DNA from: Rhodovarius crocodyli
GTDB taxonomy: Bacteria; Pseudomonadota; Alphaproteobacteria; Acetobacterales; Acetobacteraceae
NCBI RefSeq assembly: GCF_004005855.1
Contig: NZ_SACL01000001.1
Location: 434,001-498,000, forward strand
Length of the DNA stretch: 64,000 nt
Reading direction: 5' to 3'
The translations under genes and the position numbers were made by a program. The notes under the pieces are model-generated. The model worked only from the letters and a program-made list of their open reading frames with translations. It was not told the origin of the DNA and did not search any database. Below, in pieces: positions 43,215 through 61,498 of this stretch. Position 1 is the stretch's first letter. Each line of letters begins with the position of its first letter.

Positions 43215-46178
43215 CTACGCGGCGAACATGAAGTCCTGGGCGGCCAGGTTCGTCACCCCATACACATCCATCCGGTCCTCACCGATGAGGATCACCGTGT
43301 TCCCGCCGATGACCTGAATGGACATGCCCTCCAGGCCCGTCACGCCGCGCGCGCCTACGCTGATCAGGTCGCCTTCGGCCCGGCTGAAGTCGAACAGCTC
43401 ATCATGGCCGGCGCTGAACACGAAGGTATCCGCCCCGGTGCCGCCCACCAGCTGGTCGTTGCCCGCCCCGCCATTCAGCACGTCATCGCCGGCGCCGCCG
43501 CGCAGGATGTCGTTGCCCTCGTCACCGAACAGGTTGTCGTTGCCGGCCTGGCCCCAGAGCACGTCTTGGCCGCCGCCGCCATGCAACGTGCCGCCCAGCA
43601 CGGCGTCGGCGACGATCACCTCGTCGCTGGCGCTGCCGGTGATGCTGGTCGCGCCGTACAGGTAGGTCAGCTCGATACCAGCACCCAGCGTGAAGCCGTT
43701 GACGGTGACGAAGGCGGTATCATTGCCGCCGCCCGCTTCCTCGATCACGCGGTCGCCGATGTCGTCGACGACATAGGTGTCGTCACCGGTGCCGCCGGTC
43801 ATGGTGTCGGCCCCCGCACCGCCGATCAGCACGTCGTCACCACCCCCGCCGTTCAGCACGTCATCCGCGCTGCCGCCCCACAGCACATCATGGCCGATGC
43901 CCCCCGTCAGCGTGCTGGCGATGGTGGGGTTGGCCACCAGAATGGCGCCGGTGTCATTGCCGGTCAGCCGCGTGGCCAGGATGGCGAGGTACAGGATCTC
44001 GACATGGGCTGCGGCCACCCAGTCATTGAAGGCGACATAGGCGGTGTCCGTGCCGCCATCGGCGGCCTCGACCACCGTATCGGCGTCATCCAGCGCGTAG
44101 GTGTCGTTGCCGCTGCCGCCGACCAGCGTGTCGTGCCCGGTGCCGCCGATGAGCAGGTCGTCGCCTTCCCCGCCGGTCAGGGTATCGTCGCCGGTGCCGC
44201 CCAGCAGCGTGTCATGCCCGATGCCGCCATCCAGCGCGTCGTCGCCGGCACCACCGTGGATGTAGTCGTCGCCCCAGCCGCCGAACAGGCGGTTCGCCGC
44301 GCCGCTGCCGATCAGCATGTCGTTGCCCGCGCCGCCCCAGGCGTCGGTGATGGTGCTGCCAGAGAAGGTGACCGCCTGGGAGCCGATGTAGGAAGGCAGG
44401 GTCTGGTTGCCGTCCAGCGCGCCCAGGTCGATGGTGACGGCGGTGCTGAGACCCGCCGCGTTCAGCCCCGTTTCACCGAAGCGGCCCAGGATGGCGCGGC
44501 TGGCGTCCAGCCCCGCGAGCCGCGCGAAATCATCGGTGAACACCTGCATCTTCGACGCCGCATCCTGCGCGGCACCGTCGCCCAGCAGCTTCAGCTCGGC
44601 GCCGGTGAAGCTGGCGGCCTGCGCGCCGGCGGCGGCGGTGATGACCAGCTGCCACTCGCCGACGCCGCTCTCCCCCCAGAAGGCCGGCGAGGAGAACAGC
44701 CAGCCGTTGCTTTCCCAGGCGACCGGCCGCGTCGGGTCGGCCACATCCTCGGCCAGCTGCGCATAGAGCAGGCCGCTGTTGGCCAGCAGCATCGTCACGC
44801 TGGTGCCGCCCGGCGAGGTCAAAACCAGGCTGATATCGGCGGCTTTCAGCGTGGACAGCTCAAGCCCCAGCTCGACGGAATTGATGCGGAAGCCGGTGGA
44901 GGCCCCGACCGGCGCCGTCGCGTTGAAGGTCAGCGTCAGGGTCTGCGCGGCGGGCAGCCCACCCGCCGTGATGCTGGTGCCGGAGGGCGTGGAGACCGGC
45001 CCCAGCGCAGTCGTGATGTAGTTCGTCTCGGTCCGCTGCAGGGTCCAGGTTTCGGCCAGGCGCACCGCCGCCCCGGCATCGACGATGCCGAACCCATAGT
45101 CGCGGCTGAAGTTCAGCCCGCCGCCATTCGCGTTGGTGGCTGTGTTGGTCAGCCAGGGCGTGCGGCTCATGGAAGCGTCCGCGCCGATGCCCGCATTGTA
45201 GTCGGTCTGGCGCGCGGTATAGGCCAGGATCTCCTGCACGTCCCGATAGCCGAGCCGCGCATTGGCTTCCAGCATCAGCGCCACGACGCCAGACACGATC
45301 GGCGCGGCGGCGGAGGTGCCGTTGAAGCCCGTGTAGTCGCCATCGCTATACCCGTTCACGGGCCCCGCCCGGTCGGTCGAGACGATGCTGTTCCTGGCCG
45401 TCAGTTCGCTGTCGCCCGGGCCGCCGAAGGCCGAGACGAAGACATTCGCGCCAGGTGTCGAGTAGCTGGAAATGACCCCGGTGTTGTCGAGCGCGGCCAC
45501 GACGATCGAGGCATGGGAGGCGGCGACGATATCGAGGTTGGCGTCGGCCGGGGCCGGCTGATCCTCGAGCATGATGGTGCGCGAATTGCCCGCGGACTTC
45601 ACGATCACCGCGCCCAGCCCGGCGCGCCCCTCCGTCACCACCCGAATCGCCGCGAACAGGTCGGCGGTGTTCAGCACCATCCCCGCGGTGGCACCCCAGG
45701 AGTTGTTCAGCACCTGCACGCCGTCCGCCAGGGCCTGCAGGAAGGCCTTGTCCGTGTCGGCCGGCTCCTCGCCCAGTATGCGGTAGGAGACGATCTGGGC
45801 ATCCGGGGCGACGCCCACCCCGCCGATGCCGTTGTTCGCGACACCGGCGATGACGCCGGCGACCGAGGTGCCGTGATTGTCGCCCGCCGCGTCGCGCCCG
45901 CTGCTGACCGGCAGGCCGTTTGCCAGGTTCGGGTCACTGGGGGTGGCGATGCTGCCCGGCCGTGTCCACATGTTGGCGGCCAGATCCGGGTGGCTGGCCT
46001 CCACGCCGTCATCCAGCACGGCGACCAGCACATTCTTGCCGGTATAGCGCATCCAGGCCTGCTCGGCGCGGATGTCCACCCCCGCCACGCCGTTACCCTG
46101 GTCCGCACCGCCGACGTTCTTGAGGTGCCATGCGTACAGATACAGAGGATCCGTCGGCAGGAATGGGGTGCTGACCAT
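43215..46178 (-). CDS. S8 subtilisin/kexin-like protease with P domain and RTX repeats
   Basis: A 987-residue predicted secreted protease. The S8 domain spans residues 30-375, with catalytic Asp56 (VAVLDDGVEASHPDL), His102 (DNHGTSVAGVIAG) and Ser289 (NGTSAAAPIVSGV). A proprotein-convertase P domain lies at about 410-545 (VELGLELSTLKAADISLVLTSPGGT, GVGEWQLVITAAAG). Glycine-rich nonapeptide RTX calcium-binding repeats (GGxGxDxLx) run from about 620 to 930 in several blocks. The end ...AAQDFMFAA has no N-terminal signal, so type I secretion is predicted. No hlyBD/tolC-like secretion genes are adjacent. Confidence 0.93.
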   Translation of the reverse strand: MVSTPFLPTDPLYLYAWHLKNVGGADQGNGVAGVDIRAEQAWMRYTGKNVLVAVLDDGVEASHPDLAANMWTRPGSIATPSDPNLANGLPVSSGRDAAGDNHGTSVAGVIAGVANNGIGGVGVAPDAQIVSYRILGEEPADTDKAFLQALADGVQVLNNSWGATAGMVLNTADLFAAIRVVTEGRAGLGAVIVKSAGNSRTIMLEDQPAPADANLDIVAASHASIVVAALDNTGVISSYSTPGANVFVSAFGGPGDSELTARNSIVSTDRAGPVNGYSDGDYTGFNGTSAAAPIVSGVVALMLEANARLGYRDVQEILAYTARQTDYNAGIGADASMSRTPWLTNTATNANGGGLNFSRDYGFGIVDAGAAVRLAETWTLQRTETNYITTALGPVSTPSGTSITAGGLPAAQTLTLTFNATAPVGASTGFRINSVELGLELSTLKAADISLVLTSPGGTSVTMLLANSGLLYAQLAEDVADPTRPVAWESNGWLFSSPAFWGESGVGEWQLVITAAAGAQAASFTGAELKLLGDGAAQDAASKMQVFTDDFARLAGLDASRAILGRFGETGLNAAGLSTAVTIDLGALDGNQTLPSYIGSQAVTFSGSTITDAWGGAGNDMLIGSGAANRLFGGWGDDYIHGGAGDDALDGGIGHDTLLGGTGDDTLTGGEGDDLLIGGTGHDTLVGGSGNDTYALDDADTVVEAADGGTDTAYVAFNDWVAAAHVEILYLAILATRLTGNDTGAILVANPTIASTLTGGIGHDVLWGGSADDVLNGGGGDDVLIGGAGADTMTGGTGDDTYVVDDIGDRVIEEAGGGNDTAFVTVNGFTLGAGIELTYLYGATSITGSASDEVIVADAVLGGTLHGGGGQDVLWGQAGNDNLFGDEGNDILRGGAGDDVLNGGAGNDQLVGGTGADTFVFSAGHDELFDFSRAEGDLISVGARGVTGLEGMSIQVIGGNTVILIGEDRMDVYGVTNLAAQDFMFAA

Positions 46179-57421: not shown

Positions 57422-57425
<4 letters not shown>
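56967..57425 (-). CDS. GNAT-family N-acetyltransferase
   Basis: A 152-residue acetyltransferase. Motif A, the acetyl-CoA site, is VKRLYVRGTARGGRWGRRLMEALIEQARALGY (R-G-x-x-x-G-R/G-x-L layout), with strand VGIVALRPVE before it and LYRDLGFTPTEPY after. The substrate is unknown. The start overlaps the glmS stop by 4 nt. The placement next to amino-sugar genes suggests but does not prove an amino-sugar substrate. Confidence 0.9.
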
Positions 57426-59248
<1,823 letters not shown>

Positions 59249-59254
59249 TAAACG

Positions 59255-59269
59255 GCGCCCTCCGGGCGC
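59255..59269 (-). promoter_or_regulatory. Start-site hairpin of glmS holding the Shine-Dalgarno sequence
   Basis: On the mRNA GCGCCC-GGA-GGGCGC folds into a 6-bp stem with a 3-nt loop. It lies 6 nt before the glmS ATG (59248). The probable Shine-Dalgarno GGAGGG spans the loop and the 3' arm, so the structure can limit ribosome access. Confidence 0.55.
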
Positions 59270-59271
59270 GC

Positions 59272-59426
59272 CGGCCGATTCACGCCTACGCGCCCCTGGG
59301 CGCTCCGGCGATCGGACGCAGCTCCCGGCCGATTCACGCCTACGCGCCCCTGGGCGCTCCGGCGATCGGACGCAGCTCCCGGCCGATTCACGCCTACGCG
59401 CCCCTGGGCGCTCCGGCGATCGGACG
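59272..59426. repeat. Three tandem 54-bp hairpin repeats between glmU and glmS
   Basis: The same 54-bp unit occurs at 59272-59325, 59326-59379 and 59380-59426 (the last ends after 47 bp). I saw no mismatches between copies. Each unit forms a hairpin: outer arms CCGAT/ATCGG, then CGCC/GGCG, then GCGCCC/GGGCGC with a 2-nt turn, with a 3-nt bulge and a small internal loop. The array fills most of the 196-nt gap between the glmU stop and the glmS start. The unit length is a multiple of 3, so the frame stays open in the glmS phase, but translation into GlmS would bury Cys1. Confidence 0.9.
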
Positions 59427-59444
59427 GCTGGCTGATCATTCGCA

Positions 59445-60743
59445 TCACTTCTTCTTTCCCCTGAAGCCGCGGCCGGGCTTGTTGGTCTGGCGCCCCCGCG
59501 CCAGGGCCAGCGTGTCCGCGGGCACATCCTCGGTAATGGTTGATCCAGCGGCGACCAGGGCGCGGTCCCCCACCTTCACAGGTGCGACCAGCGCCGTGTT
59601 GCTGCCAATGAAGGAACCTGCCCCGATCTCGGTGCGGTGCTTGTTCACCCCGTCATAGTTGCAGGTGATGGTCCCCGCGCCGATGTTGCTGCCCGGGCCG
59701 ATGCTGGCATCGCCCAGATAGGTCAGGTGGTTGGCCTTGGCCCCCGCACCCAGCGTCGTGGCCTTGAGCTCCACGAAATTGCCGACATGCGCGCCCTCAC
59801 CCACATCGGCACCGGGGCGCAGCCGGGCATAGGGGCCGATGATGGCCCCGCCGCGCACCACGCAGCCTTCCAGATGGCTGAAAGCGCGGATCACCGCCCC
59901 GGATTCCACCCGCACGCCGGGGCCGAACACCACGTTCTGCTCAACCAGCACGTCATTCGCGATGACGGTGTCGTGGCTGAAGAACACCGTCTCGGGCGCC
60001 AGCAGCGTGACGCCGGCATCCAGCGCGGCGCTGCGCCACTGCCCCTGCAGCCGAGCCTCGGACGCCGCGAGTTCCGCCCGGCTGTTGATGCCGGCCAGCT
60101 CCGCCTCGGGCGCTTCCACCGCCACGCAACGCGATTGCGCGGCCGCCAGGGCCACCACATCGGTCAGGTAATACTCGCCGGCCGCGTTGTCGTTCGTCAC
60201 CGCGTCAAGCCAGCGCAGCATCAGCGGGCCTTCGGCGCAGATCACGCCGGCATTGCACAGGCCGATGGCACGCTCGGCCTCCGTCGCGTCCTTCCATTCG
60301 ACGATGCGCTGCACGTCCCCGGCCGCATCGGTTACGACGCGCCCGTATTTGGCCGGGTCCGCCGGACGCATGGCGAGCATGGCAAGCCCCGCTTCCTGCC
60401 GGGCCGCAACTAGGCGCTTCAGCGTCGCCTCGGAAATCAGCGGGTTGTCGGCATACAGCACCGCGACATCGCCGGCGTAGCCAGCGAGCAAGGGGGCGGC
60501 CATGCGCGCGGCATGGGCGGTGCCCAGGCGTTCTTCCTGCACCACGGTCGCGTGGGGGGCCGCCAGCTTGGCCAGCGCCTCCATCCCCGGGCCGACGACC
60601 ACGATAACGCGGTCGAACACCGCCGACACGGCGGCCAGCAGATGCGTCAGCATCGGCCTTCCGCCCAGCGGGTGCATCGCCTTGGGCAGGGAGGATTTCA
60701 TGCGGGTGCCCATCCCCGCGGCCAGGATCACAGCGGCTGCCAT
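59445..60743 (-). CDS. glmU: Bifunctional N-acetylglucosamine-1-phosphate uridyltransferase / glucosamine-1-phosphate acetyltransferase
   Basis: This 432-residue enzyme makes UDP-GlcNAc for peptidoglycan and lipopolysaccharide. The N-terminal pyrophosphorylase domain has ILAAGMGTRMKSSLPKAMHPLGG (residues 6-28) and VLYADNPLI. The C-terminal left-handed beta-helix has hexapeptide repeats (VVFGPGVRVESGAVIRAFSHLEGC, YARLRPGADVGEGAHVGNFVELK, NHLTYLGDASIGPGSNIGAGTITCNYDG with the catalytic His). The C-terminal tail RGFRGKKK is short. ATG 60743 is chosen because it gives MAAAVILAAG. It leads the glmU-glmS-GNAT-YciI transcript, divergent from gph. Confidence 0.96.
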   Translation of the reverse strand: MAAAVILAAGMGTRMKSSLPKAMHPLGGRPMLTHLLAAVSAVFDRVIVVVGPGMEALAKLAAPHATVVQEERLGTAHAARMAAPLLAGYAGDVAVLYADNPLISEATLKRLVAARQEAGLAMLAMRPADPAKYGRVVTDAAGDVQRIVEWKDATEAERAIGLCNAGVICAEGPLMLRWLDAVTNDNAAGEYYLTDVVALAAAQSRCVAVEAPEAELAGINSRAELAASEARLQGQWRSAALDAGVTLLAPETVFFSHDTVIANDVLVEQNVVFGPGVRVESGAVIRAFSHLEGCVVRGGAIIGPYARLRPGADVGEGAHVGNFVELKATTLGAGAKANHLTYLGDASIGPGSNIGAGTITCNYDGVNKHRTEIGAGSFIGSNTALVAPVKVGDRALVAAGSTITEDVPADTLALARGRQTNKPGRGFRGKKK

Positions 60744-60862
60744 GGCCCATGGGTGCCTCAGGCGACCGTGCCGCTGCAACCCTGGCGGCGATGAATAAAG
60801 GTTACGCGGTGCTGCCCGCCCCCGCTTGGCGCCCACAGGCAGCGCCACTAGGGTGCCGGCCC

Positions 60863-61498
60863 ATGACACGCCTCGCCGTTTTCGACCTCGACGGAACCCT
60901 GGTGGACACCGCCCCGGACCTGGCCGCCGCCCTGAACCGCCAGATGACGGCACGCGGCCTAGCGGAGATTCCGCTGCCGAAGGTGACCCGCATGATCGGT
61001 GACGGCGCGCGCGTGTTGCTGGAGCGCGGTTTCGCCTTCCACGACCGCCCCTTCGAGGAAGCGGCCCTGGAAGCCTTCCTGGAGGACCCGGACCTGGAAG
61101 GCGGCGCGCTGACCACGGTGTTCGCCGGCATCCCTGAACTGCTGGCACATCTGCAGGCCGAAGGCTGGCGCATGGCCGTCTGCACCAACAAGCCGGAGAA
61201 GGCGGCGCGCGGCCTGCTGGCGAACCTCGGGGTGGACCATTATTTCCGCGCCATCGGCGGGGGCGACAGCTTCCCCACCCGCAAGCCCGACCCCGCGCAT
61301 CTGCTGCACACCATGGGCGCCGCCGGGGGTGGCCGCGCCGTGATGATCGGCGACCACATGAACGACATGCTGGCCGCGCGCGGGGCCGGCATCCCGGCCA
61401 TCTTCGTCACCTATGGCTATGGCCCGGTCGAGATGGCCGGCGGCAACCCGACCGCCGCCAGCACCGAAGCCGTGACGGAGATGCTCGCGGCCTTCTAA
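60863..61498 (+). CDS. gph: HAD-family phosphoglycolate phosphatase
   Basis: A 211-residue HAD hydrolase: motif I FDLDGTLVDT (residues 6-15), a helical cap (about 18-85), motif II VCTNKP, motif III KPDP with the Lys, and motif IV GDHMNDMLAARGAG. This layout fits Gph, which dephosphorylates 2-phosphoglycolate arising from DNA repair or photorespiration-like reactions. It could also act on other small phosphates. ATG 60863 starts MTRLAVFDL; an upstream frame extension is not conserved. It ends overlapping the convergent TRAP receptor gene by 3 nt. Confidence 0.9.
   Translation: MTRLAVFDLDGTLVDTAPDLAAALNRQMTARGLAEIPLPKVTRMIGDGARVLLERGFAFHDRPFEEAALEAFLEDPDLEGGALTTVFAGIPELLAHLQAEGWRMAVCTNKPEKAARGLLANLGVDHYFRAIGGGDSFPTRKPDPAHLLHTMGAAGGGRAVMIGDHMNDMLAARGAGIPAIFVTYGYGPVEMAGGNPTAASTEAVTEMLAAF

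Follow-up and report, generated by a model that had tools for sequence, protein, structure and literature searches.

A 54-bp repeat array between glmU and glmS of Rhodovarius crocodyli, probably a local triplication of a dispersed, REP-like palindromic element

Known controls of glmS include the glmS ribozyme and the GlmY/GlmZ-RapZ system, with which the repeat array described here shares its position next to the gene, but from which it differs in being made of an element that is not specific to glmS. The closest described elements are the REPs, which the accessible portion of a broad survey (PMC3733652) describes as short dispersed palindromes near gene 3′ ends, mainly in codirectional or convergent gaps and rarely in divergent ones, that sometimes lie in frame inside genes and can provide stop codons. 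That portion of the survey covers the GTAG REPs with their RAYT transposases as well as the CGTC REPs of alphaproteobacteria, a group that lacks a dedicated transposase and that, according to the survey, does not occur in Acetobacteraceae. Translation in E. coli is reportedly reduced by REPs that lie no more than 15 nt from a stop codon (a study cited in PMC12306157, available in part).

The window, a stretch of 64,000 nucleotides of Rhodovarius crocodyli contig NZ_SACL01000001.1, contains three head-to-tail repeat units between glmS and an upstream gene that we take, from its sequence, to be glmU. The features of the locus, in the order of transcription, are the following.

59445 to 60749, minus strand: glmU, the upstream gene, from the listing of open reading frames and a gene call; its start is unsettled, the open reading frame beginning at 61148 and the gene call at 60731.
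59249 to 59444, between minus-strand genes: the glmU-glmS spacer, with three head-to-tail 54-bp units at 59271-59432.
59379 to 59432, minus strand: repeat unit on the glmU side, the first to be transcribed; core hairpin at 59383-59423; unit deviating at its outer edge; 60.3 bits with covariance model R1.
59325 to 59378, minus strand: middle repeat unit; core hairpin 59329-59369; 54 of 54 nt the same as in 59271 to 59324; 60.3 bits with R1.
59271 to 59324, minus strand: repeat unit next to glmS, third in the transcript, a direct repeat; core hairpin 59275-59315; 60.3 bits with R1, in which this copy is included.
59249 to 59275, minus strand: small hairpin with the likely glmS ribosome binding site (GGAGG near the loop); −14.1 kcal/mol folded alone.
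59248 to 59445, minus strand: mini-ORF of 65 codons through the array, 18 per unit, from translation; its ATG overlaps the glmU stop (TGATG) and its TAA overlaps the glmS start (TAATG).
57422 to 59248, minus strand: glmS, the downstream gene; 75-77% identity to its ten best named GlmS relatives, of which seven are titled Roseomonas, Neoroseomonas, Falsiroseomonas, or Pseudoroseomonas.

The three direct 54-bp copies that a sequence-only reading of this DNA had placed between glmU and glmS do lie exactly in that spacer. The same reading saw no differences among them, and this holds for the two units nearer glmS, which are identical with a period of 54, and for a run of 48 nt common to all three, but not for the unit next to glmU, which is only 91% identical to the others over 54 nt because its last bases deviate. 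Tandem Repeats Finder describes the array as 2.9 copies with 100% matches and a score of 312, the top of its six rows in the window. Tandem repeats of 27 and 81 bp also occur at 43806-44282, probably within a protein gene with repeated motifs.

In the transcript sense the core of the unit reads CCGAT-CGCC-GGA-GCGCC-CAGG-GGCGC-GTA-GGCG-TGA-ATCGG and is predicted to form a hairpin with a 3×3 loop and a TGA bulge. The long hairpin proposed for each copy is recovered, in interrupted form, when a single unit is folded alone (−25.8 kcal/mol), but it is no more stable than dinucleotide shuffles (z −0.80; 34 of 200 equally good), and in the minimum-energy fold of the whole spacer the copies pair with one another. 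The whole spacer is more stable than its shuffles (z −2.28; 3 of 200 as good). Similarly, a fourth, small hairpin holding the glmS ribosome binding site can be folded in isolation, but as a separate hairpin it is absent from the minimum-energy fold of the full spacer. Family-wide covariation is better evidence for the fold of the unit than the unit's own stability.

Copies in relatives have a common build, with an outer stem, a 1×1 mismatch, a CCGAT/ATCGG box, a TGA bulge, a variable but compensated inner stem, and often a GNA/GNA loop, the core being 38-42 nt long in most. The ends of the element are near-constant, and the inner stem varies by locus yet pairs. It should be noted that R1 was built from an alignment of 28 copies hand-picked for canonical form among 80 matches; the changes on both sides in 8 of its 14 pairs are subject to selection bias, and pairing in this alignment is overstated because of the way its copies were picked. 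A fairer test of covariation uses 75 distinct matches picked by their ends only, in which 80.4% of pairs within the fixed box are standard as compared with 54.5% after shuffling, and 75.3% of those outside it as compared with 43.2%, both values exceeding all of 1000 shuffles. The fixed box also co-varies, for example as CAGAT/ATCTG, CGGAT/ATCCG, GCGAT/ATCGC, and CCGGT/ACCGG. Beyond the 1×1 mismatch, the outer stem has three further pairs that are formed in 85-92% of 212 R1 copies (47-58% expected) and a weak fourth (58%; 38% expected). Of 172 distinct copies, 164 have the TGA bulge and 113 the GNA/GNA loop, R1 having been trained on copies with these features. In a wobble comparison for selection at the RNA level, G·U pairs outnumber A·C mismatches 50 to 24 overall, but the excess is confined to one inner stem (34 to 11, against 8 to 8 in the outer and 8 to 5 in the tip stem). 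A methylation site, GANTC, was rejected as the purpose of the ends, as the CCGGT...ACCGG subfamilies lose GANTC and retain pairing.

The array had at first the appearance of a glmS-only element, since an exact search with the hairpin tip gave four places in the R. crocodyli genome, three of them the array; this was rejected because the tip is the variable part, and gapped end patterns revealed the family. With the spacer as a DNA query, loci other than glm were matched in four of eight congeners. End-pattern matches per congener genome number 1 to 72, as compared with 0-2 in a reversed control; they stand out in G003, G005, G007, and G008 and are near chance in G004 (10, against 2 in the reversed control) and G006 (1). 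Of 299 genomes in the window's GTDB family, the Acetobacteraceae, 160 match the pattern CCGATSN{19,34}STGAATCGG; 17 of these have at least 20 matches, with a maximum of 99 (G131), whereas the reversed control gives four altogether. A survey of the class yields matches in 121 of 385 genomes (5 of the 385 being from the same family), mostly one to three times and, where listed, often with no visible hairpin; in both surveys single matches in a genome, of which some were inspected, are partly due to chance. The clearest multi-copy case outside the family is G574, with 15. The end motif recurs in this genome, G480, and G327, in up to 15 copies per genome and there with long inner stems that pair perfectly, so the frame of the element may extend past the family.

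Scoring with R1 was applied to up to 150 candidates per genome and gives, at E ≤ 1e-4, at least 138 matches in G095, a genome of another genus, at least 83 in G023, and at least 60 in G131. A genome-wide search for the unit, which the sequence-only reading had proposed, finds 8 R1 copies in R. crocodyli at E ≤ 0.05 among the candidates scored, those outside the array reaching at most 41.5 bits; at the same threshold, and again among the candidates scored, the congeners have at least 52 (G008), at least 51 (G007), 15, 12, 7, 7, 2, and 0 (G004). At what is apparently one site (G000:C5:67457 and G002:C5:77167), R. crocodyli has a single unit where the sister species has a tandem of at least two.

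The location of the element relative to genes was analyzed in 1.59 Mb of G095, G023, and G209, containing 127 R1 copies at E ≤ 0.01 in 90 sites. The stretches of G095 were placed on known matches in 48 of 60 cases and not in the other 12, and those of G023 and G209 are contiguous; genes were called with a home-made codon-usage gene finder, which assigns 85% as coding and reproduces glmS and the end of glmU. Of these sites 42 are codirectional, 32 convergent, and 2 divergent, 13 overlap a gene call, and 1 is without both neighbors. Divergent placement is rare (2 of 76 intergenic sites) by comparison with all gaps of at least 40 nt (223 of 866, the others being 504 codirectional and 139 convergent). 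The element begins 0-12 nt after a stop codon on the same strand at 63 of the 90 sites, as compared with 9.6% for random placement and with 3 of 90 in the antisense sense of the same interval; 48 of the 63 are at 2, 5, or 6 nt, which by arithmetic puts the start of the helix about 0-2 nt after the stop once the outer stem is counted. Eleven of the 12 sites at 2 nt represent one G095 subfamily whose own end supplies TAG. A longer repeat of G095 (L264, L294, L298, L283, L268, L266, L295, L275, L305, L284, and others), which consists of TAGAG-CRGATC...GAATCYG-CTCT and some 40 conserved nt after it, provides the TAG stop of the preceding gene.

At 17 sites of other family members the same proximity is found 9 times in the sense and 0 times in the antisense orientation (11.4% for random placement), but 53 sites of the genus itself, which include orthologous sites of different species, have 11 sense and 19 antisense placements (30 of 53 on both strands together; 19.5% expected at random for a random strand), 13 of the 19 being at exactly 6 nt. 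Closeness to stop codons is general; sense orientation, because of these antisense sites in the genus, is not. The stops ahead of elements are 44 TGA, 20 TAG, and 1 TAA, the TAG count including the subfamily that brings its own, as compared with 1014, 378, and 88 in all gene calls; on these counts a strong target preference for TGA was rejected. With regard to replication-strand bias, the strand of the element relative to the GC skew of 20-kb pieces is 37 to 20 at positive and 16 to 17 at negative skew.

Neighboring copies within 120 nt are head-to-tail in 58 of 58 pairs and opposite in 0, some pairs being counted twice as a few loci overlap, and their spacing in arrays is mostly 54-60 nt. Neighbor units of other arrays are 95.2% identical on average, as compared with 80.6% between first copies of different G095 loci. 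In the glmUS array two copies agree at all 54 positions and a run of 48 nt is common to all three; set beside that 95.2%, this makes the recent expansion suggested for the array plausible.

Like REPs generally, as described in the accessible portion of PMC3733652, the element is short, palindromic, dispersed, and near gene 3′ ends; it differs in having only head-to-tail neighbors, a hypervariable inner stem, and a TGA bulge, and in the lack of a Y1 transposase in the genus. Many copies of the extragenic palindrome are found in element-rich relatives, R. crocodyli having its 8 R1 matches among the candidates scored, and the location near gene 3′ ends and rarely in divergent gaps is found in G095, G023, and G209 and more weakly in the genus. 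The element was not found described in the literature searched, most subscription papers lying outside its coverage. A general REP-finding tool gave a count of 1,369 REPs for Lichenicola cladoniae (PMC12306157, available in part), which is an Acetobacteraceae species, and copies of this element may therefore already sit undescribed inside such counts.

The glmUS array probably arose when a REP-like dispersed palindromic element was triplicated in place, and it would then be a passenger that tunes glmS mildly at most rather than a dedicated switch. The element is best classed as REP-like with an unusual architecture, and we infer for it a mobile origin and a function at message ends. Transcription would place it at the 3′ edge of the preceding gene's message, where it might act like E. 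coli REPs near stops, hindering the terminating ribosome and/or shielding the end of the message, with a modest effect. Copies would spread by being inserted now and then behind stop codons and by duplicating in tandem. Against this reading, proximity to stops in the sense orientation is weaker in the genus itself, and at glmUS the first core begins 21 nt after the glmU stop, beyond the usual spacing. The glmUS operon may tolerate the array because one reading frame runs open through it between overlapping stop/start pairs: a ribosome that has finished glmU could reinitiate at the overlapping ATG, read through the 18-codon repeats, and reinitiate again at glmS. Of the three options that the sequence-only reading had offered, a mobile palindromic repeat fits better than a new control element or an RNA-processing site, in that the family is dispersed and palindromic, but mobility itself is our inference, as a clean pair of filled and empty sites was not found; glmUS varies among congeners but the sister species G002 retains half a unit.

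A broader reading, which we regard as possible although rather unlikely, is that of an element spread through the family and possibly the class, with near-constant ends (CCGAT ... TGA-ATCGG) and a freely changing, compensated inner stem, for which a process that recognizes stop codons or terminating ribosomes and acts without a Y1 transposase would choose positions almost exactly where reading frames end, the glmS array being an amplified case and a translated relay.

The glmUS locus of relatives bears on the remaining possibilities. Among nine genomes of the genus the intact array precedes glmS only in R. crocodyli. In G002 (GlmS 94% identical) the spacer measures 43 nt and contains the first half of a unit (19 of 21 nt); in G004 (GlmS 86% identical) it measures 160 nt and contains two decayed units, of which one gives a weak R1 match of 22 bits. 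In the other six (G001, G003, and G005-G008) there is no array and glmU and glmS overlap or are 1 nt apart; the older arrangement of the two genes was probably a stop/start overlap. In G095 the end of glmU contains two units in frame, and glmS follows directly. One congener has a second full-length glmS copy (L144, G008:C236; 71% identity) away from glmU.

It is unlikely that the array is kept for the sake of the mini-ORF, or of its peptide repeat, as a useful relay of translation between glmU and glmS. One open frame with stop/start overlaps on both sides is found in three species, with 14 codons in G002 and 53 in G004, and in G095 the units prolong glmU, read in that same element frame, but the three species may share a single ancestral insertion, the mini-ORF is not called by the codon-usage gene finder, and a comparable bridging ORF is present at only 1 of 26 other sites. 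Long chance ORFs are, moreover, common in GC-rich DNA.

That the element is a classical REP moved by a Y1 transposase (RAYT or IS200-like), which has been lost here or acts from elsewhere, is improbable. Dispersal near gene 3′ ends is shared with REPs, and the proximity to stop codons and the TAG brought by the G095 subfamily with the GTAG REPs in particular, as far as these are described in the accessible portion of PMC3733652. However, the ends differ from those of GTAG REPs, the copies inspected have no GTAG tag, and neighbors are head-to-tail only. PF01797, the Y1 transposase family, was found in 0 of 9 genomes of the genus and in 1 (G274) of the 17 family genomes with at least 20 pattern matches, as compared with 35 of 299 overall, and a link to a Y1 transposase was rejected on these counts. 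Identity with CGTC REPs was also rejected, on the basis of tag and tail, stem, and dimer orientation as given in that portion of the survey. An alphaproteobacterial host and the lack of a dedicated transposase are common to both, and CGT precedes the first stem C in 26 of 212 element copies, but there is no regular CGTC tag and a CCA tail occurs in 3 of 212. The CGTC REP stem of 8-9 bp opens with A-T pairs and has a loop of 4-5, whereas that of the element opens with C-G, C-G and has a mismatch, a bulge, and an internal loop; head-to-head dimers are dominant and head-to-tail ones negligible among CGTC REPs, in contrast to the orientation of neighbors reported above.

A dedicated control element, in which the array would bind a metabolite, small RNA, or protein and set the translation of glmS relative to glmU, is very unlikely. 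The location before glmS, the predicted pairing around the ribosome binding site, the pair of units before glmS in G095, and the remnants in G002 and G004 are consistent with such a role, but the element stands behind many unrelated genes and the array is missing from six congeners. R1 at E ≤ 0.1 has no match in 80 named GlmS loci, four of them with less than 300 nt of upstream DNA, and no array is visible by eye in 29 spacers of named GlmS loci. Rfam models give no match in 58900-59700 at E ≤ 1, in agreement with the earlier judgment that the array resembles neither the glmS ribozyme nor GlmY/GlmZ; they give one chance match at L273 (E 0.79) and, at the gathering threshold on 11 loci, a tRNA only. 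The proposal of a new glmS control element has against it the scattering of the same family at unrelated loci and its variation or absence before glmS in congeners, although the hundreds of sites that the sequence-only reading had named as counting against control are not seen in R. crocodyli itself, given its few, mostly weaker R1 matches among the candidates scored. The comparison of close relatives that it recommended shows the intact array in this genome alone. An array of transcription terminators or attenuators is the least probable explanation, since, although hairpins lie behind stop codons and one terminator-like match is present at 59269-59255 on the minus strand, this match overlaps the glmS start with a tail requirement of just TTTAATGT, and a T run of at least 4 within 20 nt downstream occurs at 0 of 90 sites, on which ground intrinsic termination was rejected.

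The array therefore has an ordinary explanation and no glmS riboregulator is indicated, but the family of repeats to which it belongs is sufficiently unusual to merit description. A false lead for a glmS riboregulator is removed and replaced by a repeat family that was not found described in the literature searched, and which occurs in the Acetobacteraceae, a family stated by the accessible portion of a broad survey to lack CGTC REPs (PMC3733652). With its spacing from stop codons, its arrays that run one way, and a stem that is hypervariable yet compensated, it is well suited to studying how palindromes without a Y1 transposase spread and how they affect the ends of messages.
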